The translations under genes and the position numbers were made by a program. A DNA stretch of 41,195 nt from positions 1 to 41,195 of the IMG/VR virus record IMGVR_UViG_3300020469_000094. The stretch is one strand, 5' to 3'. The notes under the pieces were generated by a model, which searched no databases, was not told where the DNA came from, and saw nothing but the letters and a program-made list of their open reading frames with translations. Below are positions 5,112-18,751 of this stretch, in pieces; positions within the stretch are counted from its first letter, which is position 1, and each line of letters begins with the position of its first letter. Source of the stretch: a virus.

Positions 5112-5576
5112 ATGTTTTTTAATAAAAATAAAGATATTGATGTAGATCAATTAAGAGAACAATTAATAATAGACGAGGGACAAGTAAATGAAATATATCA
5201 TGATCACCTTGGCTATGCTACATTTGGCATTGGACACTTGGTATTGGAAGGAGACCCAGAATTCGGGTTGGCGTTGGGTACTGCAGTCTCAGAGGATAGA
5301 GTTATATCATGCTTCGCCAAGGATGTAGAGACAGTCATTAGTGATTGCAAAAAATTGCATGATGGTTGGGACGGCTACCCAGAAGAGGTTAAACAAGTTG
5401 TCGCAAATATGATGTTTAATATGGGACTTACGCGCTTAAGTAAATTTAAAAAGCACAACGCAGCGCTGCAATGTGGAGATTGGAAGGAGGCGGCTGTCGA
5501 AGGCCGTGATTCAAAATGGTACAGACAAGTGACGAACAGAGCAGAAAGACTCATGTTGAGACTCGAGGCGATGTAA
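5112..5576 (+). CDS. T4-type lysozyme (GH24 endolysin)
   Basis: 154 residues. The catalytic arrangement of T4 lysozyme is clear: DEG with Glu22, then Asp31 and Thr37 (spacing 9 and 6, as E11/D20/T26 of T4 lysozyme), followed by FGIGH. It cleaves the NAM-NAG bond of peptidoglycan at lysis. It has no signal peptide, so it would need a holin; two holin-like genes lie at 6324 and 6620. The gp5 spike in this genome lacks the lysozyme domain found in T4. Base composition rises to about half G+C in parts of this gene, unlike its AT-rich neighbours, hinting at acquisition by transfer. Confidence 0.9.
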   Translation: MFFNKNKDIDVDQLREQLIIDEGQVNEIYHDHLGYATFGIGHLVLEGDPEFGLALGTAVSEDRVISCFAKDVETVISDCKKLHDGWDGYPEEVKQVVANMMFNMGLTRLSKFKKHNAALQCGDWKEAAVEGRDSKWYRQVTNRAERLMLRLEAM

Positions 5577-5710
5577 ATTATTATCATACTAATGAAACAC
5601 AAACTAATAAAGGTTGGCATTGGTGTTATGATAAAAAAGGGTATTTTAGATACTCAGATTGGTTTAAAACTAAAAAGGAAATAGGAGAAAAATATGGCTT
5701 CAACAGTTAA
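5516..5710 (+). CDS. Small ORF overlapping the lysozyme end
   Basis: 64 residues. The only in-frame ATG (5516) lies inside the lysozyme gene and has a poor ribosome-binding site. The part after the lysozyme stop (YYHTNETQTNKGWHWCYDKKGYF and a Lys/Tyr-rich end) looks protein-like and returns to AT-rich composition. It may be a genuine overlapping gene or the 3' remnant of a gene whose start was replaced when the lysozyme arrived. Confidence 0.4.
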   Translation: MVQTSDEQSRKTHVETRGDVNYYHTNETQTNKGWHWCYDKKGYFRYSDWFKTKKEIGEKYGFNS

Positions 5711-5948
5711 ACTATTAGGCTCAGAAGTAAATTTAGCATCAGCAACTAACGTTGGAAATGCTAAATTAGTAAGAGTACTTAATAACAAAACAAGTGTTCA
5801 GGCAATTACACAAAAAAATGCTAGTGGTACAACACTAGCAACTGTTACTTTAGCAGCTGGAGAAGTTGCATATATTGAAAAGGGAGGCCAAGATACTTTA
5901 ACTGGCCTAGCTTCTTCATTAGCAGTAAGTGTAGCATTTACTAATTAA
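5694..5948 (+). CDS. Small virion-type beta protein
   Basis: 84 residues, MASTVKLLGSEVNLASATNVG, with beta-strand alternation and a motif TLAAGEVAYIEKGGQDTL. Similar short proteins occur in marine phages next to structural genes, by recollection only. The ATG at 5694 has a strong TAGGAG upstream within the previous ORF. Probably a minor structural or decoration protein. Confidence 0.65.
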   Translation: MASTVKLLGSEVNLASATNVGNAKLVRVLNNKTSVQAITQKNASGTTLATVTLAAGEVAYIEKGGQDTLTGLASSLAVSVAFTN

Positions 5949-5975
5949 TGAGGGCATTTCTCTTAGGAGAATATA

Positions 5976-6293
5976 ATGTTCGATTTAACAGACACAGCAT
6001 TAATTGAAACGCTCAAAAAAACCGAAGAATCGGGAAGCACCGATATACGTATTGGTGTTACTGGTGGCGGTTGTAATGGTTATGAGTATGTTATACAATG
6101 GTGCGAAAAAATTAGAAGAGATGACCATATCTTAGATTATGGAAAATTTCAAATAGTTATAGATAATGAATCCCTTGAATATCTAAAGGATGCCCAATTA
6201 GATTGGGTAACCGAAGGATTAAATTCCTTTTATAAAATAATCAACCCCCTGGAAACGGCATCATGTGGATGCGGTGTTTCCGTTTCTTTTTGA
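5976..6293 (+). CDS. IscA/HesB-type iron-sulfur cluster carrier
   Basis: 105 residues with the A-type carrier signature: Cys33 in GGGCNGY and Cys97-Gly-Cys99 near the C-terminus (C-x63-C-G-C, as in IscA). The family takes or delivers Fe-S clusters as dimers or tetramers. Similar genes occur in marine myophages, where they may support Fe-S enzymes during infection; the partner here is unknown. A clear ribosome-binding site (TTAGGAG) precedes the ATG. The 3' end of the gene also forms the terminator hairpin at 6251-6281. Confidence 0.85.
   Translation: MFDLTDTALIETLKKTEESGSTDIRIGVTGGGCNGYEYVIQWCEKIRRDDHILDYGKFQIVIDNESLEYLKDAQLDWVTEGLNSFYKIINPLETASCGCGVSVSF
6251..6291 (+). terminator. Terminator hairpin at the end of the IscA-like gene
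   Basis: GGAAAC (6251-6256) pairs with GTTTCC (6276-6281), and GCATC (6258-6262) pairs with GATGC (6268-6272) around a 5-base loop. GTTTCTTTTT follows. The hairpin is made of coding sequence and separates this gene from the late-promoter unit starting at 6311. Confidence 0.65.
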
Positions 6294-6310: not shown

Positions 6311-6318
6311 TATAAATA
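6311..6318 (+). promoter_or_regulatory. T4-type late promoter box for the curli-like module
   Basis: Perfect TATAAATA followed by 5 bases and then the ATG at 6324. With T4 spacing (last A at -6), +1 is the A of the start codon, so this transcript may be leaderless. Confidence 0.7.
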
Positions 6319-6323
6319 AACGT

Positions 6324-6620
6324 ATGGATGAAGTGTTTAAGTTGATTGCTGATGTAGGAGCACCTATAGCCGGATCAATCATCATGGGCGTTTTTATATT
6401 TATTGTTATAAAGCAAATCCTTGCTGGTATAATAGACCAAATAAAGACTCTCACGATGTTTTGCCAATCTTTGGAGAATAGAGCGAGAACAATGAGCAAC
6501 GAAATCATAAAAATCGACTTATTAGTATCTAGTGCATTAGATTTACCACCAGATATTGATAGAATAGCTCGTGCAGAAAACTTTATCGAAGATGGTAAAC
6601 TTGATGTGAGAAGAGATTAA
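6324..6620 (+). CDS. Holin-like small membrane protein 1
   Basis: 98 residues. One hydrophobic helix (~residues 13-36, PIAGSIIMGVFIFIVIKQIL), then an amphipathic helical tail. Length and layout resemble BhlA/UviB-type holin or bacteriocin-associated proteins. It is similar throughout to the next gene product (LIADVGAP against LVSDYGFP, then matching helices), so the two are probably tandem paralogues. A role in lysis timing with the lysozyme at 5112 or in the envelope module downstream is inferred. The stop overlaps the next ATG. Confidence 0.55.
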   Translation: MDEVFKLIADVGAPIAGSIIMGVFIFIVIKQILAGIIDQIKTLTMFCQSLENRARTMSNEIIKIDLLVSSALDLPPDIDRIARAENFIEDGKLDVRRD

Positions 6621-6892
6621 TGGACATTGGACAATTAGTATCAGATTATGGATTTCCAGCAGTTATGGCTGTAGGAATGGGTTATTTTATTTGGTATATT
6701 TGGCACTTTATTAATACGGTGATTGAGCCTGAGCTAGAAAAAATGCACATGGCTTTAATTAGAGTAATAGATCAAACAAGGATGTTAGATCAAGATATGA
6801 TAAGATTACAGCAAAAAGTAAATGTAGTTTTAAGGTATAAAGAAAATGCAAAGAAGAAGCGAGGAAAAAGAAATGAAAAGCAAAATAATTAA
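6620..6892 (+). CDS. Holin-like small membrane protein 2
   Basis: 90 residues: one N-terminal membrane helix (~residues 11-33, FPAVMAVGMGYFIWYIWHFI), a helical segment with heptad spacing, and a very basic tail (KKKRGKRNEKQNN). The plan fits BhlA/UviB-like phage holins. It overlaps the previous stop by one base and the CsgF-like start by 20 bases, so it is translationally tied to the curli-like genes. Function as holin is inferred. Confidence 0.55.
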   Translation: MDIGQLVSDYGFPAVMAVGMGYFIWYIWHFINTVIEPELEKMHMALIRVIDQTRMLDQDMIRLQQKVNVVLRYKENAKKKRGKRNEKQNN

Positions 6893-7400
6893 TTTTATAT
6901 TTATTTTTACGCTATTATTAATAGCAACACCATCATCACAAGCTGATGAATTAGTACATAAATTTAAAAGTCCTTCCTTTAGTGGTATAGGGACTTCATC
7001 ACACTATTTAACTATAGAAAACCAAGAATTCTCACGTAAAAAAGCAATTGCTGATGATATTGAAGCTGCTTTATTACAAGCTGAGCGAGATGCAGAAAAC
7101 ACAACTCTAGCTAAATTTATGAGAAACCTAGAAAGCAGGATATATGCTCAACTTAGTAAACAGTTGGTAGAAAGTTTATTTTCTACTTGCGATATTACCG
7201 ACCCAGCATGTCAACAATCAAGCTTTGGTAGTTTTGTATTAGAAGGTAATACTATTACTTACCAAAGAACAACTTGTGATGCATCAATATATGCATGTGT
7301 ACAAGATGAAGAAGTTATAATTATGACAATTACCGCAGAAGATGGATCTGAAACTACGATAGTTATTCCTATAGGAGCTGGAAGTGCTGGAACAGGCTAA
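6873..7400 (+). CDS. csgF: CsgF-like curli assembly factor
   Basis: 175 residues from the ATG at 6873, preceded by GAGGAAAAAG; an upstream ATG at 6846 would bury the signal peptide. Residues 1-24 are a Sec signal peptide (IINFIFIFTLLLIATPSSQADE). The mature start LVHKFKSPSFSG matches the CsgF pattern FxNPxFGG, the segment that plugs into the CsgG pore in E. coli. A helical middle and a C-terminal beta part (residues 146-166) follow, as in CsgF. Two cysteine pairs (106/113, 135/142), not present in E. coli CsgF as I remember it, could form disulfide loops. It sits just ahead of csgG, as in pelagimyophage CsgGF loci I recall. Confidence 0.82.
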   Translation: MKSKIINFIFIFTLLLIATPSSQADELVHKFKSPSFSGIGTSSHYLTIENQEFSRKKAIADDIEAALLQAERDAENTTLAKFMRNLESRIYAQLSKQLVESLFSTCDITDPACQQSSFGSFVLEGNTITYQRTTCDASIYACVQDEEVIIMTITAEDGSETTIVIPIGAGSAGTG

Positions 7401-8277
7401 AAAAGCAATATCACTATTATCAGTAATAGTACTAACAAGTTGTGCTGGGATGCCTAGTATGACTGATAGCTGTAAAGATAGCTTAATGGAATATTATGGC
7501 GAATGTAGAGAAAAGCCAATAGTAGTTCACTTACCAACACATAAGGAATTATTAGAATTACCAGCACCAGAAAAACAACCTGTGGTGGCAGTATATAATT
7601 TTCCAGATTTAACAGGACAAAGAAAACAAAAAGGCGATTCAGCTTTATTTTCAACAGCCGTTTCACAAGGAGCATCTACTATGTTAATAGATGCTTTAAA
7701 AACTGCTGGTGGTGGAAGCTGGTTTAGAGTTGTCGAAAGAGTTGGCCTGGATCATTTAACTAGAGAAAGACAAATAGTTAGAACAACTAGAGAACAATAT
7801 GGCGAAGAGGACGAAACAGGATTAGCTCCTTTACTTTTCGCTGGAATCATTCTTGAGGGAGGTGTCATTGGATTTGATACTAACATCGAGACTGGGGGTG
7901 CAGGAGCACGATATCTTGGAGTAGGAACTTCGCGAGCCTATAGAAGAGATATAGTTACTGTACATTTAAGAGCCGTTAGCACATTGACGGGTGAAGTTTT
8001 ACTTAATGTGCAAACATCAAAAACCATTTTGGCTGTCGCTAATGGATATGATGTTTTTAAATTCGTCGATATGAGTACTCAGCTTGTAGAAATAGAAGAT
8101 GGGATAACTGAAAATGAATCCGTGACACGGTCACTTCGATCAACAATTGAAGCAGCTGTGTTGGAACTAATATACCAGGGTCATGACAGAGACTTTTGGG
8201 AAATAAAAGCAGGACATCGTCACCCTCATCAGGATGATGGGAATAACGATAAACACGCTTTAAACGAGGAAAACTAA
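7384..8277 (+). CDS. csgG: CsgG-like outer-membrane curli secretion pore (lipoprotein)
   Basis: 297 residues from a GTG start inside csgF. A lipoprotein signal ends with LTSC (Cys20). The CsgG core is strongly conserved: LELPAP (57-62), VYNFPDLTGQ (70-79), FSTAVSQGASTMLIDAL (89-105), VVERVGLDHL (116-125), RERQIVR, a GAGARYLGVGTS block (172-183) and TSKTILAV (211-218). CsgG forms a nonameric 36-strand beta-barrel exporting amyloid subunits. The constriction loop RKQKGDSALF (80-89) keeps the Phe but not the Tyr/Asn I remember from E. coli. The tail after 275 is His/Asp-rich. CsgE is not seen nearby. Confidence 0.9.
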   Translation: MLEQAKKAISLLSVIVLTSCAGMPSMTDSCKDSLMEYYGECREKPIVVHLPTHKELLELPAPEKQPVVAVYNFPDLTGQRKQKGDSALFSTAVSQGASTMLIDALKTAGGGSWFRVVERVGLDHLTRERQIVRTTREQYGEEDETGLAPLLFAGIILEGGVIGFDTNIETGGAGARYLGVGTSRAYRRDIVTVHLRAVSTLTGEVLLNVQTSKTILAVANGYDVFKFVDMSTQLVEIEDGITENESVTRSLRSTIEAAVLELIYQGHDRDFWEIKAGHRHPHQDDGNNDKHALNEEN

Positions 8278-9006
8278 ATGAAAATGTTAAATAGATATAT
8301 CGCATTTGCAATTTTGTTATGCCCTATAGTTGCTTTTGCCGGCGCTAATGACAACAAGATCTTACTCGACCAGAGTGGAGATACACTAAACTTAACTATT
8401 GACCAAGTAGGTTATGGTAATAAGTTATGTGGATCTATTTCTAGTGGCGATTGTGCTACTGATTGGGTCTTGACTGGTAACACTGTGACTATGGACATTG
8501 ATATGCTAGGTAATTTAAACCAAATCTTCGGACCAACCTTATTTGATAATACTGACGTTGACTTAAAGTTAACAGGTAATAGCAATATTTGGGATTGGAA
8601 CGTAGGATATGGTGGAAGTGCTGATGCTTCAGTCGTTGATGTAGCAGTAACTGGAAACTCAAATACATTCGATATAGATTGGGGCTACGCAGCTTCAGCT
8701 GAAAGATTGGATTTTGATCTAGATATTACTGGTGGATCTAACGTCTGGGATATCAATATTGATGCTGATGACGTTACATGGAATGTTGACGTAGTTGGAT
8801 CTTCAAATAATTTTATGACAGCACAAACAGATGGTTCTGATCAATCTCTAACTATGGAGTGGATTGGAAGTAGTGGTGATATTGATATCACTCAATCATC
8901 TGGCACATGCCCAACAGGTATAACAAGCTGTTATGGAGTAATTAATGCAGAATTCGATACTGAAAACGCTGTGGTTAATATCGTCCAAAAAGATACTACT
9001 GACTAG
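8278..9006 (+). CDS. Curlin-like (CsgA/CsgB-type) secreted repeat protein 1
   Basis: 242 residues with a Sec signal peptide (cleavage after VAFA, ~residue 21) and GAGGAAAA before the ATG. The mature part is made of ~20-25-residue beta repeats. The first contains LNLTIDQVGYGN (37-48), a curlin-type Q-x-G-x-x-N turn; later ones use V-x-V-x-G-x-SN-x-[FW]-D, for example at LTGNSNIWDW and VTGNSNTFDI. It is strongly acidic and rich in Asp, Asn, Trp and Gly. Cysteine pairs 51/59 and 211/218 bracket the repeats. Being next to csgG, it is the likely export cargo. A beta-solenoid amyloid or fibre is inferred. Confidence 0.72.
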   Translation: MKMLNRYIAFAILLCPIVAFAGANDNKILLDQSGDTLNLTIDQVGYGNKLCGSISSGDCATDWVLTGNTVTMDIDMLGNLNQIFGPTLFDNTDVDLKLTGNSNIWDWNVGYGGSADASVVDVAVTGNSNTFDIDWGYAASAERLDFDLDITGGSNVWDINIDADDVTWNVDVVGSSNNFMTAQTDGSDQSLTMEWIGSSGDIDITQSSGTCPTGITSCYGVINAEFDTENAVVNIVQKDTTD

Positions 9007-10108
9007 TTTATTAGTTAGTACGTTTTCTTTTGCAGATGATATAGGCGGCATAGAAGAACATAAGGGCAGTGGTGGTATAACACGCTCAGGCGAAAATATT
9101 ACCACTGAACTTGGTTTAGCTATACAGCAAATGGATCATGTAGAAACAGCTAAAGGCCGTATGCTACTAAAGTTCTTAGACGATTCAGTTGTTCGTTTAA
9201 CTGAACACACTGAAGTAACGCTTACTGAATATTACTACGATCCTAATAAAAAGGCTGATGCTAATATGACTATGAAATTCGTGGCTGGTACAGCGCGATT
9301 TTCAACTGGAAGATTAGGTTTAGTACCAAAAGAAAATATAAAAATAGAAACTCCAACTGCCACTATAGCGGTTAGAGGTACAGATTTCACAACCTCGGTT
9401 GATGAATTGGGAAGAAGCTTAGTTATACTTCTACCTGAAACTGAATGTACAATTGACGGTGACTGTTCTCCAAGTGGTGAAATAACGGTTACTAACGAAG
9501 GAGGTGTTGTTACACTTAGTGAAGCTTATCAAGCAACGATGGTTTCAAGTTTTAACACAATTCCAAGTCAACCAGTTGTATTAGATAATATTAACTTAAA
9601 TATGATAGACAATATGTTTATCGTGAGTCCACCAAATGAAATTGAAGAAAAACAAGATGAAGGAAGTAATGGAACTGGGAATGCTGATAACAATATTCTG
9701 GATTTTACTGATCTCGATACAGACTACCTAGCTGATGATTTTTTAGCTGAGGATAATCTAGAGTTTAATGAACTCGATATGGATTTATTAGATGTCGACT
9801 TTCTACAAGACATATTGGTGGCATTGGAAAAAGTAAGTATCTTTAATCGTAGATCAGCACTAGATAGTTCATCAGGCGATATACAAGGAACTTTAGCCCC
9901 AGGGTTCGATAAAGATACACAATATAATACTATAATTGACCAAGGGGCTGGTCAAATATGGTTCTATAGAGAAGTAAACGGAGTAATTTCTGTTAAAATA
10001 CCTATAGGAACTAATTTAACTTTGGATACAGAAAATGAAGGTAGAAAAAATAACATTATTGTTGGCGATGGCCAGTCTGTTATTATCATCATTCGTCAAG
10101 GCGGATAA
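8945..10108 (+). CDS. FecR-domain secreted/periplasmic protein
   Basis: 387 residues. The start at 8945, with GGAG at 8935-8938, lies inside the preceding curlin-like gene, so the signal peptide (KKILLTSLLVSTFSFA) is encoded in the overlap. Residues ~45-180 form a FecR-type domain; the signature PTATIAVRGTDFTT is at ~137-150, followed by DELGRSLVILLPE. FecR domains sense or bind in the periplasm and often sit beside CHASE2-cyclase genes, as here (11083). Residues ~252-291 are an Asp/Leu-rich repeated stretch (FTDLDTDYLADDFLAED). One cysteine pair (168/174) is present. Confidence 0.8.
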   Translation: MQNSILKTLWLISSKKILLTSLLVSTFSFADDIGGIEEHKGSGGITRSGENITTELGLAIQQMDHVETAKGRMLLKFLDDSVVRLTEHTEVTLTEYYYDPNKKADANMTMKFVAGTARFSTGRLGLVPKENIKIETPTATIAVRGTDFTTSVDELGRSLVILLPETECTIDGDCSPSGEITVTNEGGVVTLSEAYQATMVSSFNTIPSQPVVLDNINLNMIDNMFIVSPPNEIEEKQDEGSNGTGNADNNILDFTDLDTDYLADDFLAEDNLEFNELDMDLLDVDFLQDILVALEKVSIFNRRSALDSSSGDIQGTLAPGFDKDTQYNTIIDQGAGQIWFYREVNGVISVKIPIGTNLTLDTENEGRKNNIIVGDGQSVIIIIRQGG

Positions 10109-10748
10109 TTTAATAGAATTAAAAAATGTTGAATCTAATGATTTAGATCTTACTATAGAACAGGTAGGAGCTAATAATACTATACAGTGCTATCAAGATA
10201 ATTGGTGCTATATAAAGGATAGTGTTACTATAGATTTTAAACAAGTAAATACATCCACTGCAACAAATGTTTTAGAAATTTGGCATGTAGAAGATGGTAA
10301 TAATACTATACGATGGGGTCAAGGTGTTTCACTCAATAATAAGAATTCTACAACATGGGTATATGATGGAACTGAAGGCGGTGGTCATTACGCTAGAATA
10401 GATGTACATGGCGGTGGTAATAATTTTATAGGATATCAGCAAAATGCTGGTGATACTACTGGACACATTTTTACATCTCTTATTTTTAGTGATAATAATG
10501 ACATATGGGTTAGACAAAAAAATAATGGTCGTAAAGAATTAAACCTATACACAACATCAGATGGTAATACTATAGATGTTTTGCAAAAAACAAACGGTGG
10601 TGAACATACTGCTAATATAGCTTTACATGGTTCACAACCAACAACTTTAAATTTAATACAACAAGGACAAACTGATCAATCATATTCTATTACACAAAAT
10701 TGTGTAACGGTTGGTGGTTGTTCTATCAGTGTAACACAGGGTAATTAA
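10035..10748 (+). CDS. Curlin-like secreted repeat protein 2
   Basis: 237 residues. The signal peptide (KITLLLAMASLLLSSFVKA) is encoded within the 3' end of the FecR gene, a 74-base overlap; GGA lies 8 bases before the ATG. Residues 37-48 (LDLTIEQVGANN) match curlin-like protein 1 at the same positions. The body has beta repeats with QxG/NNT turns, ending TLNLIQQGQTDQSYSITQN, very close to the curlin repeat (Q-x-G-x-x-[NQ]). Cysteine pairs 52/58 and 223/229 bracket the repeats. It may act as nucleator or second subunit alongside protein 1; which is which cannot be told. Confidence 0.72.
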   Translation: MKVEKITLLLAMASLLLSSFVKADNLIELKNVESNDLDLTIEQVGANNTIQCYQDNWCYIKDSVTIDFKQVNTSTATNVLEIWHVEDGNNTIRWGQGVSLNNKNSTTWVYDGTEGGGHYARIDVHGGGNNFIGYQQNAGDTTGHIFTSLIFSDNNDIWVRQKNNGRKELNLYTTSDGNTIDVLQKTNGGEHTANIALHGSQPTTLNLIQQGQTDQSYSITQNCVTVGGCSISVTQGN

Positions 10749-10749
10749 T

Positions 10750-11010
10750 ATGGAATGTCCAGAAGATCTTATATGTTTTACTGAAGAAGAGTGGACAAAC
10801 TTTTTAACTGAATATGAACTCGATATTGTAAATGAGGTTGGCACACCAACTTCTACAAGTGATGCGGAAGCGGCAATAAACTTTACATGGGAAATTTTAT
10901 TTCTCTCGCCATGGGAATTAGCTTACATAGCTTTACCTATGAGCGTTTTAGCGTTTTACGGGCTCACAATATATGCAATATTCAAATGGCTTCAGAAAAA
11001 ATTTAACTAA
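10750..11010 (+). CDS. Small membrane protein of the curli-like module
   Basis: 86 residues. The N-terminal 50 residues are acidic and contain the pair Cys3/Cys9 (MECPEDLICF). One membrane helix follows (~residues 55-78, PWELAYIALPMSVLAFYGLTIYAIF), then a basic KWLQKKFN end, suggesting N-out/C-in topology. It follows curlin-like protein 2 by one base. It might anchor or regulate the secreted products or act as a small accessory to the cyclase. Family not recognised. Confidence 0.6.
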   Translation: MECPEDLICFTEEEWTNFLTEYELDIVNEVGTPTSTSDAEAAINFTWEILFLSPWELAYIALPMSVLAFYGLTIYAIFKWLQKKFN

Positions 11011-11082
11011 TTTAAAATATTATATAAGAAGAAAATACGGCTATCCTAATCAGAAAAAAGGATTATTAATAGATATATACGC

Positions 11083-12915
11083 ATGAAATACATTACTTCA
11101 ATATGGACAACACTATTAATAATTGTTTTATTAATTGGTTTAAGAGTACAAGATCCTCAGTTATTAGAAGAAACTAGATTAAATGCCTTTGATCAATATA
11201 TCCAATCACTACCTGATAAACATTCAGACCAAATTGTATTAATTGATATAGGCGAAGATAGCCTAGAAGCATTAGGACAATATCCATTCCCAAGACAAAC
11301 ATACGCACAGATGATATCTGATTTACGTAATGCAAATGCAGGTATGATTGGATTTACTATAATGTTTCCAGAGTCAGATAGATTTGGTGGTGACGAAATA
11401 TTTGCATCATGGATCAGAGATAATGGAATCATATTATCACAAGACGCAAGCTCAGCAGGAAGAAGTAATCAAGCACCATATGTAGGAACAGCAATAAAAG
11501 GTATAGGCGATCCATATAATTATGCATATGAATACACTGGATTAGTAACTAATATATCAATGTTAGAATCAGAAGCTTGGGGTGTAGGATTAATAAATGG
11601 AGCTCAAGAGGTTGATAATGTCACAAGAAGAATACCTCTAATATCACAAGTAAACAATAAATTATATCCGTCATTTGCATTAGAAACTATTAGAGTACTT
11701 CAAGACAAAAAATCATATACGATGCATGTCGAAGATTTTGGTATATTAGATGTAATGATTCCACCATATGAACCAGTAAAAACTGATACTAATGGATCTA
11801 TATGGATTAATACAAATTACACATTTGATAGTTATATGTATGGAGTAGATGCATTACCTAATTTAAATGGAAAAACAGTTATTGTAGGAGTTACAGCTTC
11901 TGGTATAGTTCCACAAACATCAACACCGATGGGATTGGTATATCCTCATCAGTTACAGGCTTCTGTTATACAAACTATAATGGATGGATCTTCTATATCT
12001 CGTCCGCAGTGGGCAGATTCAATGGAAATATTAGTTGGTTTGATTCTATCTTTAGTATTGGTTTTGACGGTATATTATCTACCGATCTGGGCATCGCTTG
12101 TTGTCTTCTTCTCGAACGTTGCAATTGCTGCATCTTCTGTATATTTCTTCTGGTACGAATGGGGTATACTCCTCGATCTTTCGTTTCAACTAATATTATA
12201 TATAATAACCTTCACCTCAGCGGGCTTTAATAATTTTTATAAGCAATTTATGTTACGACAACAAATTAGAAAGCAGTTTGAAACTTACCTAGATCCTAGA
12301 CAAGTGGCACTATTACAAAAAGATCCATCGCTATTAAAGCTTGGTGGAGAACGGAAAGAGATGACATTTATGTTTATGGATATAGTAGGGTTTACTCCAA
12401 TATCAGAGCATTATAAAAACAACGATGATCCTGAAGGGTTAGTGATTATTATAAATAATTATTTAGATCGTATGACTAAAGTAGTTTTAAAGCATGGTGG
12501 AACGATTGATAAGTATATGGGTGATTGTATTATGGCTTTTTGGAATGCACCATTACAGTGTGATAATCATGCAGACATGGCTTTAAAAGCAGCAGAGGAG
12601 ATAGTAGAGACAGCAGATGAACTTATTAAAGAATTGGAACAACAGGGTTTACCTAGGATTGATATTGGTATTGGTATCAACACCGGCGATTGCATCGTCG
12701 GAAACATGGGATCAGAAACTCGATTTGACTATTCCGTCATTGGAGATGCCGTTAACCTTGGAGCTAGACTCGAAGGCCAAACACGCAATTATGATGGGGT
12801 TCGAGTGTTGTTATCACAGTTCACTGCTGGAAAGTGTAAAGAGAGAAGCTTCACTCAAGTCGATAGAATACAAGTCAAAGGTAAAACAGAGAAAATTCAA
12901 ATTTTCACTATCTAA
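11083..12915 (+). CDS. CHASE2-domain class III adenylate cyclase
   Basis: 610 residues: N-terminal membrane helix (~5-20), extracytoplasmic CHASE2 sensor (~25-300), three membrane helices (~313-385), and a cytoplasmic class III cyclase domain (~420-610). Catalytic residues are present: metal-binding Asp433 (FMDIVGFT) and Asp481, purine-contacting Lys477 (DKYMGD), and transition-state Asn558 and Arg562 (VNLGARLE). The adenine-specifying position is Ser551, typical of class IIIb bacterial enzymes, so cAMP is the likely product. The domain ends normally (VKGKTEKIQIFTI), so it should be active. The ribosome-binding site is weak (AGGA ~22 bases upstream). Confidence 0.9.
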   Translation: MKYITSIWTTLLIIVLLIGLRVQDPQLLEETRLNAFDQYIQSLPDKHSDQIVLIDIGEDSLEALGQYPFPRQTYAQMISDLRNANAGMIGFTIMFPESDRFGGDEIFASWIRDNGIILSQDASSAGRSNQAPYVGTAIKGIGDPYNYAYEYTGLVTNISMLESEAWGVGLINGAQEVDNVTRRIPLISQVNNKLYPSFALETIRVLQDKKSYTMHVEDFGILDVMIPPYEPVKTDTNGSIWINTNYTFDSYMYGVDALPNLNGKTVIVGVTASGIVPQTSTPMGLVYPHQLQASVIQTIMDGSSISRPQWADSMEILVGLILSLVLVLTVYYLPIWASLVVFFSNVAIAASSVYFFWYEWGILLDLSFQLILYIITFTSAGFNNFYKQFMLRQQIRKQFETYLDPRQVALLQKDPSLLKLGGERKEMTFMFMDIVGFTPISEHYKNNDDPEGLVIIINNYLDRMTKVVLKHGGTIDKYMGDCIMAFWNAPLQCDNHADMALKAAEEIVETADELIKELEQQGLPRIDIGIGINTGDCIVGNMGSETRFDYSVIGDAVNLGARLEGQTRNYDGVRVLLSQFTAGKCKERSFTQVDRIQVKGKTEKIQIFTI

Positions 12916-13192
12916 TACTTATCCAACTGACCGCCAAATAGTATATTTTTATGTGATTAACACACTTGATATATGGACTACTTACAGGGGAGTAAAATCT
13001 GGAAAGGCTAAAGAGAAAAATCCGTTATTACCAAATAGTCCAAATATTGGAGAATTAATAGCCTTTAAGGTCGTATGGAGTGATGTAATTCTTACTTCTT
13101 TTAATGAGGAAGAAATGAGTATAGCCAATGGTATAATAACCCTAGCAGTAATAAATAACCTAAATGTTCTCCATAATATCGACGAGTTATAA
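12617..13192 (+). CDS. Secreted/membrane protein overlapping the cyclase by 299 bases
   Basis: 191 residues in the +1 frame relative to the cyclase. The N-terminus is a credible signal peptide (YLGLILVLVSTPAIASSETW) encoded over the cyclase catalytic domain. The C-terminal part reads PTDRQIVYFYVINTLDIWTTYRG, then KNPLLPNSPNIGELIAFK, a pattern of phage and bacterial membrane proteins with D-x-x-TT/QT, then NPLL, then two helices. No in-frame ATG exists after the cyclase stop, so either this long overlap is translated or a non-ATG start near 12950 is used. Function unknown. Confidence 0.55.
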   Translation: MNLLKNWNNRVYLGLILVLVSTPAIASSETWDQKLDLTIPSLEMPLTLELDSKAKHAIMMGFECCYHSSLLESVKREASLKSIEYKSKVKQRKFKFSLSNTYPTDRQIVYFYVINTLDIWTTYRGVKSGKAKEKNPLLPNSPNIGELIAFKVVWSDVILTSFNEEEMSIANGIITLAVINNLNVLHNIDEL

Positions 13193-13279: not shown

Positions 13280-13732
13280 ATGGCACATATCGTAGTAAAA
13301 GGTATTAAAAAAGCACATCGAGAAGACCTATCTCAGTACCTCTACAACCTTCAGAGAACCCTTGGTATCATCAACCTCCGTAGTAAAACCATATACCTTA
13401 CCTTTAAGAGGCGTGTAGACGGCGACGCGATGGGATATTGTTCAGGTGATCATAAGGTGGTTGAAATAGAAATAGCCAAAACTGGATGGGAATTTGAGGA
13501 TATTATGATAGCTGTAGCACATGAAATGGTACATGCTAAGCAGTTTCTAAGAAAAGAACTGATAGACGGATATATGTATAAAGGCCGTAACTATTGGGAG
13601 TGCTCATACGAACATCAACCATGGGAAAAATCAGCTTATTTAAGAGAAATGAAGTTATATAACACCTGTTATGGTCACGGTAATAGAAAAAACATGCATG
13701 TTTCTGCAAATAAACACTGTACATTTTGCTAA
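13280..13732 (+). CDS. SprT-like zinc metallopeptidase domain protein
   Basis: 150 residues. The zinc motif HEMVHAKQ is at 81-88 (His81, Glu82, His85), with a downstream PWEKSAY whose Glu could be the third ligand, as in SprT/WLM-type phage peptidases. The substrate is unknown; SprT relatives cleave DNA-bound proteins. The ribosome-binding site is GGAAAAGAG. The last ~15 residues are encoded by the palindrome and the promoter that serve the next gene, so the C-terminal tail may be non-essential. Confidence 0.7.
   Translation: MAHIVVKGIKKAHREDLSQYLYNLQRTLGIINLRSKTIYLTFKRRVDGDAMGYCSGDHKVVEIEIAKTGWEFEDIMIAVAHEMVHAKQFLRKELIDGYMYKGRNYWECSYEHQPWEKSAYLREMKLYNTCYGHGNRKNMHVSANKHCTFC
13687..13706. repeat. 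Palindromic element, copy 2 (inverted relative to copy 1)
   Basis: Contains AAACATGCATGTTT (13690-13703); the 20 bp are the reverse complement of 107-126. It lies 14 bp upstream of a -35 box, the same distance as copy 1, but here inside the 3' end of a coding region. Confidence 0.6.
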
Positions 13733-18035: not shown

Positions 18036-18108
18036 ATTGAGATCTGCAGCTTATGGCGAAGGTAGAAGATACTTTAGTTGGTGGTTACATGTTTGGTGTA
18101 ATAGATGA
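18022..18108 (+). CDS. Micro-ORF bridging dsbA and gene 59
   Basis: 28 codons (MLYNRLRSAAYGEGRRYFSW and seven-residue end). It overlaps the end of dsbA by 14 bases and the start of gene 59 by ATGA, exactly bridging an otherwise unfilled gap. The product is basic and Trp/Tyr-rich. It may be a real small protein or a coupling ORF; no ribosome-binding site is evident. Confidence 0.4.
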   Translation: MLYNRLRSAAYGEGRRYFSWWLHVWCNR

Positions 18109-18689: not shown

Positions 18690-18751
18690 AATATTATATT
18701 ATGGATAAAGTGGATAATTCAGTAAATACGACGAAATATGGAGAAAATAAT

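Follow-up and report, generated by a model that had tools for sequence, protein, structure and literature searches.

The window, meaning the whole stretch of DNA that was analysed, is a 41-kb linear virus record (IMGVR_UViG_3300020469_000094; 41,195 nucleotides (nt)), a fragment. The record is that of a T4-like phage, with a helicase loader (phrog_269) at 18105 and a single-strand binding protein (phrog_224) at 18701. Ten genes on the + strand, here called h1, h2, CsgF, CsgG, A1, FecR, A2, s, CHASE2 cyclase and DUF5658-like, occupy positions 6324 to 13192. They make up a curli-type export module of a known kind (PMC9599517), of which this block is a further member. The features of the block, with protein lengths in amino acids (aa) and the evidence for each, are as follows.

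6250-6282, + strand: terminator-like hairpin with T-rich tail, where the upstream Fe-S (HesB/IscA-like) gene ends, by folding (-14 kcal/mol)
6311-6318, + strand: T4-type late promoter box TATAAATA, 13 nt 5' of the h1 ATG, by sequence and locus comparison
6324-6620, + strand: h1, 98 aa, single N-terminal membrane helix and coiled coil (phrog_18771)
6620-6892, + strand: h2, 90-aa paralogue of h1 with a basic C-terminus (phrog_18771)
6873-7400, + strand: CsgF with Sec signal peptide (Pfam PF10614, E 7.6e-10, above cut-off)
7384-8277, + strand: CsgG, outer-membrane export pore lipoprotein, lipobox LTSC (Pfam PF03783, E 1.1e-50)
8278-9006, + strand: A1, curlin-like, 242 aa, predicted beta-solenoid (family profiles, model)
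8945-10108, + strand: FecR-domain protein, 387 aa, Sec signal peptide (Pfam PF04773, E 7.3e-11; model)
9032-9613, + strand: FecR N-domain, residues 30-223, adhesin-retention/cell-surface-signalling fold (model, fold match)
9875-10105, + strand: FecR C-terminal beta domain, residues 311-387, last strand curlin-like, IIIIRQGG (model, motif)
10035-10748, + strand: A2, second curlin-like protein, 237 aa (family profiles)
10750-11010, + strand: s, small membrane protein (86 aa) found in a minority of relatives (locus comparison)
11083-12915, + strand: CHASE2 receptor-type class III adenylate cyclase, 610 aa, intact catalytic motifs (Pfam)
12617-13192, + strand: DUF5658-like membrane protein, N-terminal part overprinted on the cyclase catalytic domain, 299-nt overlap (Pfam, frame test)

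Pfam and PHROGs searches recovered the genes named in an earlier note on this DNA, in the order and on the strand given there, and the terminator and T4 late box that it had placed 5' of the module were also located. Pfam E-values for the cyclase gene were 7.5e-41 for CHASE2 and 2.3e-18 for the class III cyclase domain, and near full-length PHROGs matches were obtained for h1 and h2, CsgF, CsgG, FecR and the cyclase. The description of the block as one tightly overlapping run holds for most of the genes, which abut or overlap, but not ahead of the cyclase, where there is a 72-nt gap. The bounds that had been set, 6324 to 13192, agree with the gene list, but their end takes in a tenth gene that had not been named. 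CsgF most likely starts at 6873, rather than at 6846 as had been proposed. Upstream, at 5112-6293, lie genes for a lysozyme, an 84-aa protein and the HesB/IscA-like Fe-S protein; the gene directly 3' of the module (13280-13732) encodes a protein of 150 aa in which a metalloprotease-like motif, HEMVH, occurs.

Three published reports bear on this module: PMC7029224, PMC9004378 and PMC9599517, presumably by Zaragoza-Solas et al. (2020), Buchholz et al. (2022) and Wittmers et al. (2022), respectively. CsgF, CsgG and their neighbours were described in pelagimyophages (PMC7029224) and in the Methylophilales phage Melnitz (PMC9004378), and the arrangement HK(s)-CsgF-CsgG-CsgA/B-FecR-CsgA/B-AC (HK, histidine kinase; AC, adenylate cyclase) in pelagiphages, both podo- and myophages, with expression in metatranscriptomes (PMC9599517). 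The combination of FecR, cyclase and two cargoes, which the earlier note had taken to be novel, had therefore been described, and it is carried by the cultured phages HTVC008M and Melnitz in the same order as in the window: small pair, CsgF, CsgG, curlin, FecR, curlin, cyclase. CsgG, FecR and the cyclase of the window share 40-46% identity with those of HTVC008M and 35-40% with those of Melnitz. The window differs from this pelagiphage type VIII secretion system (T8SS) module in its additional 86-aa gene and overlapping DUF5658-like gene, and in following lysozyme and HesB genes rather than gp32.

The whole gene set was sought across phage loci and was found to co-occur in the near-invariant order h-h-csgF-csgG-curlin-fecR-curlin-(s)-cyclase over ~300 viral loci, not all of them independent. 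Two sets of 83 and 73 loci, gathered mainly by CsgG queries, each showed this one order as far as each contig extends. Reciprocal queries with h, the cyclase and FecR (71, 79 and 70 loci, respectively, with some contigs in common) retrieved the same block, and the FecR queries yielded curli loci nearly every time. Such conservation of gene order is far beyond chance. Some loci have a single h, or a second curlin that was undetected (e.g. L464). Six phage module contigs (L084, L086, L088, L090, L093 and L101) were found binned in metagenome-assembled genomes (MAGs) labelled Sphingobacteriales, Saprospirales, Planctomycetaceae and Flavobacteriaceae, which is likely contamination. A 42% CsgG match was also seen in OR851715.1, a 1.5-kb record with the doubtful title 'Salmonella phage S.Kent 1-2-1'.

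In the model of the FecR protein, the signal peptide is followed by a beta domain predicted with confidence (residues 30-223), and a linker of low confidence connects this to a second beta domain at the C-terminus (residues 311-387). Fold matches of the N-domain were to the cell-surface signalling domain of PupR at Z 14.9 and, at Z 7.1, a level below that at which a fold match stands alone, to 5ix9, which is titled 'Cell surface anchoring domain' (root-mean-square deviation (rmsd) 2.1, 24% identity, 72 residues). The 5ix9 structure is presumably the retention domain of the Marinomonas RTX adhesin. Across 385 alphaproteobacterial genomes, 43 of the 58 N-domain matches at E<=1e-24 (the chromosomal operon L091, described below, being left out) fell in open frames longer than 500 aa, reaching 6,913 aa, and the best of them lay near the N-termini of long proteins. 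Among the matches inspected, RTX repeats were present in five proteins, with E-values down to 1.8e-36, and cadherin domains also in one; TolC, ABC and HlyD genes adjoin two of these five loci. New here is that the FecR N-domain is closest to the N-termini of alphaproteobacterial RTX adhesins and has the fold of an adhesin anchoring domain; no report of FecR domains in RTX adhesins was found in a limited literature search. RTX adhesins are held in their export pore by a periplasmic N-terminal domain (PMC13090378). In common with this retention system (LapA/Marinomonas type, type I secretion), the phage protein has an N-terminal beta anchoring domain, a helix and a segment with no predicted structure; it differs in its Sec signal peptide, its length of just 387 aa, its place beside CsgG rather than TolC, and its curlin-like end. 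A role as an iron-citrate-type sigma-regulator is unlikely: the protein has an N-terminal signal peptide and the FecR domain only, with no cytoplasmic anti-sigma part or membrane helix ahead of that domain.

FecR, A1 and A2 share their ends, in which a hydrophobic-x-hydrophobic-x-Q strand is followed by a few residues. This curlin-like C-terminal strand was present in 72/75 distinct C-termini of FecR, 83/88 of A1 and 75/76 of A2, against 0/91 for CsgF, 0/108 for CsgG, 1/56 for the cyclase and 5/279 for other open reading frames; the sequences counted are related and the events not independent, yet the deep splits of the phage group are covered. That FecR and both curlins have this last strand in common, and CsgF, CsgG and the cyclase do not, is also new here.

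For the export pore, the CsgG profile matched CsgG in the PDB with an E-value of 4.9e-66. A1 and A2 are homologous to one another (hhalign 99.6%, E 4.8e-25). The Pfam family Curlin_rpt was matched by 17 of 34 members of the A1 family and 9 of 30 of the A2 family, and the A2 profile matched E. coli CsgA (PDB; E 9e-4) and, at E 6e-3, a further protein with curlin repeats. Neither A1 nor A2 of the window has a Pfam match individually, and the two curlin-like proteins recognized by the earlier note are therefore assigned at the family level. Using a curlin kernel pattern taken from PMC10192328, 2.5 and 3.7 kernels per protein were counted in A1 and A2, respectively, about tenfold the 0.23 and 0.36 in shuffled sequences. 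The model of A1 is an all-beta, predicted beta-solenoid with a predicted local distance difference test score (pLDDT) of 83 and a predicted template modelling score (pTM) of 0.79, as the earlier note had anticipated for its cargoes. A Foldseek search with this model gave nothing at E<0.001, and in a VIA fold comparison generic beta-solenoids ranked above CsgA (Z 10.9; rmsd 8.9, a poor value); the fold therefore supports a solenoid without singling out curlin. The length of A1 is near-constant and that of A2 variable. The A2 of HTVC008M (L002:10638-11963) contains a PA14 domain, suggesting that A2 is a variable adhesive subunit. Compared with E. coli curli (csgBAC/csgDEFG, type VIII secretion), the phage module has CsgG, CsgF and curlin-repeat substrates in common, its repeats being degenerate, and adds FecR, the CHASE2 cyclase, h1/h2 and DUF5658. 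CsgC and CsgD were not identified in the phage module, nor was CsgE found among the module proteins of this 41-kb fragment.

Expression late in infection, which had been suggested from the box at the head of the operon, gained support from comparison of loci: TATAAATA occurs near h1 in 76 of 118 distinct loci, against 1.5% in shuffles, and before the internal genes only 0-3 matches per gene were seen. The box, written as [TC]ATAAATA, stands at exactly -13 from the h1 ATG in 89/183 distinct loci, and a Shine-Dalgarno-like stretch was seen at h1 in only 27/183. By analogy with T4 late promoters, the operon mRNA would start at or beside the h1 ATG. It is possibly leaderless (window 6311-6326 and relatives), because of the fixed position of the box and the few Shine-Dalgarno-like stretches.

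Of 157 phage cyclases, 144, among them that of the window, have the full set of catalytic motifs (metal Asp pair, Lys, Asn and Arg); the best solved relative is CyaB (3r5g; E 9e-33). The Melnitz cyclase (L003:14826-16877) has lost the catalytic Asn, reading GDSVSTAARIE in place of GDAVNLAARLE elsewhere, and has a C-terminal extension in common with the bacterial cyclase of L091. The tenth gene of the block has a weak Pfam match to DUF5658 (E 3.9e-4, below cut-off). Its relatives adjoin the cyclase in ~60 loci, including two without curli genes, and are placed upstream and adjacent, upstream at ~0.8-1 kb, or downstream and overlapping the cyclase by ~290-400 nt, with one exception. A second frame open for at least 85 codons was found in 39/40 of the overlap loci and in 0/94 cyclase genes without that arrangement. 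In the window, the overlap (12617-12915) holds ~100 DUF5658-like codons with a signal-peptide-like start over the cyclase catalytic domain. The overlap frame is genuine, which is new here; no report of DUF5658 in phages was found in a limited literature search. The two curli-less loci (L348:659-4486 and L369:2211-5326) encode a CHASE2 cyclase, a DUF5658-like protein and a small lipoprotein-like protein, which may be another envelope system built on this cyclase.

Pairing of FecR with CHASE2 was rightly described by the earlier note as a bacterial arrangement, being known from Campylobacterota (PMC9239204) and found without curli in the bacterial loci L238 and L246. As in the phage, the Campylobacterota clusters encode a CHASE2 cyclase with an exported FecR-domain protein; the phage set has no phosphodiesterase or TPR partner and is linked to curli export. 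In another bacterial locus (L477:3969-9984), a CHASE2 receptor with SpoIIE output lies two genes 5' of an 874-aa FecR-domain protein.

One bacterial chromosome was found to carry csgF-csgG-curlin-fecR-CHASE2 cyclase in the phage order, which is new here. This operon (L091:9468-15491), from a MAG named 'Hyphomonas sp. TMED17', lies on a 705-kb contig with ordinary bacterial genes on either side. It differs from the phage operons in having no h1/h2, a single longer curlin-like gene and a FecR protein that is without the terminal curlin strand. In a tree of CsgF and CsgG, the phage copies and L091 separate from other alphaproteobacterial curli with support of 100/100. L091 is a long branch nested among the phage copies (96/90), and a phage-only clade was not rejected (p-AU 0.206, approximately unbiased test). 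A full-length FecR match of the L091 kind was seen in no other genome among 299 of the order, 105 of the family and 385 of the class.

The small proteins h1 and h2 correspond to the published 'histidine kinases' (PMC9599517), a label that was rejected: it is new here that these are membrane proteins of 90-98 aa without a Pfam kinase domain (HisKA/HATPase). The earlier note had called them holin-like, which is only a guess. The sole hint of a holin is a 21-residue match to phrog_4898 (E 0.0019), and no match to the BhlA holin family was found.

Tentatively, and at rather less than even likelihood, we read the block as a late-transcribed type VIII export-and-sensing operon in which the CsgG pore would retain the FecR protein and the CHASE2 cyclase would read it. 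CsgG and CsgF would form an outer-membrane pore through which A1 and A2 pass out to give a surface fibre on the infected cell, perhaps with some benefit such as aggregating or shielding host cells. Rather than serving as an iron regulator, the FecR protein would be exported by Sec, its adhesin-retention-type N-domain being joined through a flexible linker to a C-terminal beta domain that closes with the strand shared by A1 and A2. Its C-terminal end may dock on the fibre or on CsgF through the pore, with the folded N-domain remaining periplasmic, where it would anchor the fibre and perhaps gate the pore, no CsgE having been identified in the module. A folded N-domain with a curlin-like tail could lodge in the pore in this way because the last, imperfect repeat of E. 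coli CsgB is implicated in CsgF binding (PMC10192328) and curlins are thought to cross CsgG with the N-terminus released last (PMC6957492). The state of FecR would then be presented to the periplasmic CHASE2 domain, whereby the cyclase would make cyclic AMP (cAMP), with the DUF5658-like membrane protein as its putative partner. A stronger form, in which an adhesin-retention domain has been turned into a pore-lodged occupancy sensor that plugs CsgG, tethers the fibre and drives the cyclase, such that fibre export or cell contact gives late cAMP, is somewhat unlikely.

Several observations weigh against retention and sensing. The fold of the FecR N-domain is also that of the sigma-regulators FecR/PupR. 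When profiles of the curlins and of the FecR C-terminal domain were compared, the match was not significant, and strict curlin kernels were not clearly enriched in FecR, so that its likeness to the curlins lies in the last strand, which the FecR of L091 is without. Parts of the module are separable, since three full modules (L415, L421 and L423) have no cyclase and two cyclase phages (L348 and L369) have no curli genes. Cultures of Melnitz were reported without clumping (PMC9004378).

In the published reading (PMC9599517), which comes with metatranscriptome expression, the block is a curli-like amyloid operon whose fibres aggregate or shield infected cells, with FecR (iron-sensing) and the cyclase as upstream curli regulators. 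CsgF, CsgG and two curlins are all present, as it supposes; the FecR protein, however, lacks an anti-sigma region, carries a signal peptide and has adhesin N-termini as nearest relatives, the operon's own late box leaves little role for a transcriptional regulator, and the putative histidine kinase is a 90-98-aa protein in which no kinase domain was found. We consider this reading unlikely. It is appreciably less probable that FecR, CHASE2 cyclase and DUF5658 form an independent sensor of the envelope or environment that merely travels with the curli genes. The separate occurrence of the cyclase with DUF5658, the full curli modules that have no cyclase and the bacterial FecR-CHASE2 pairs without curli (including PMC9239204) would fit such a sensor, but fecR stands directly 3' of the first curlin gene, usually between both, with the same C-terminal strand, and reciprocal searches with FecR lead back to curli loci.

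A lysis-timing device, with CsgGF acting as a pinholin or gated pore and h1/h2 as holins, was proposed for Melnitz (PMC9004378). The lysozyme, 84-aa and HesB genes lie 5' of csgF in the window, relatives of each were found in 32-33 of the 115 loci with enough upstream sequence, and in L464 a lysozyme gene lies shortly 5' of the module. A nearby lysozyme of this type is nevertheless absent from most loci, CsgG is a pore of the outer membrane, the holin evidence for h1/h2 is the single short match with BhlA unmatched, and the conserved curlin cargoes, FecR and the catalytically intact cyclase would be left unexplained, making this very doubtful. That the phage carries the module as a decaying, functionless passenger might be argued from the SAR11 and OM43 hosts reported to have no curli genes (PMC7029224, PMC9004378). 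Among deeply diverged myo- and podophages, gene order and frames have been preserved, and catalytic motifs are retained in nearly all cyclases, such that this is hardly credible. Among these, retention of FecR at the pore coupled to sensing is the best-supported reading here, held at somewhat less than even confidence.

The module is common in ocean phages, curli proteins making up ~0.1% of assembled viral proteins and occurring at all 65 GOV2.0 stations (PMC9599517), and it has posed a puzzle, the known hosts of module phages being without curli. If FecR is read as a domain of the retention type that ends like a curlin, this puzzle becomes testable in terms of one protein, a terminal motif, a pore and a cyclase. 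If true, the operon would amount to a surface organelle that a virus encodes together with its sensor, and the company that FecR and CHASE2 genes keep in bacteria would be easier to explain.

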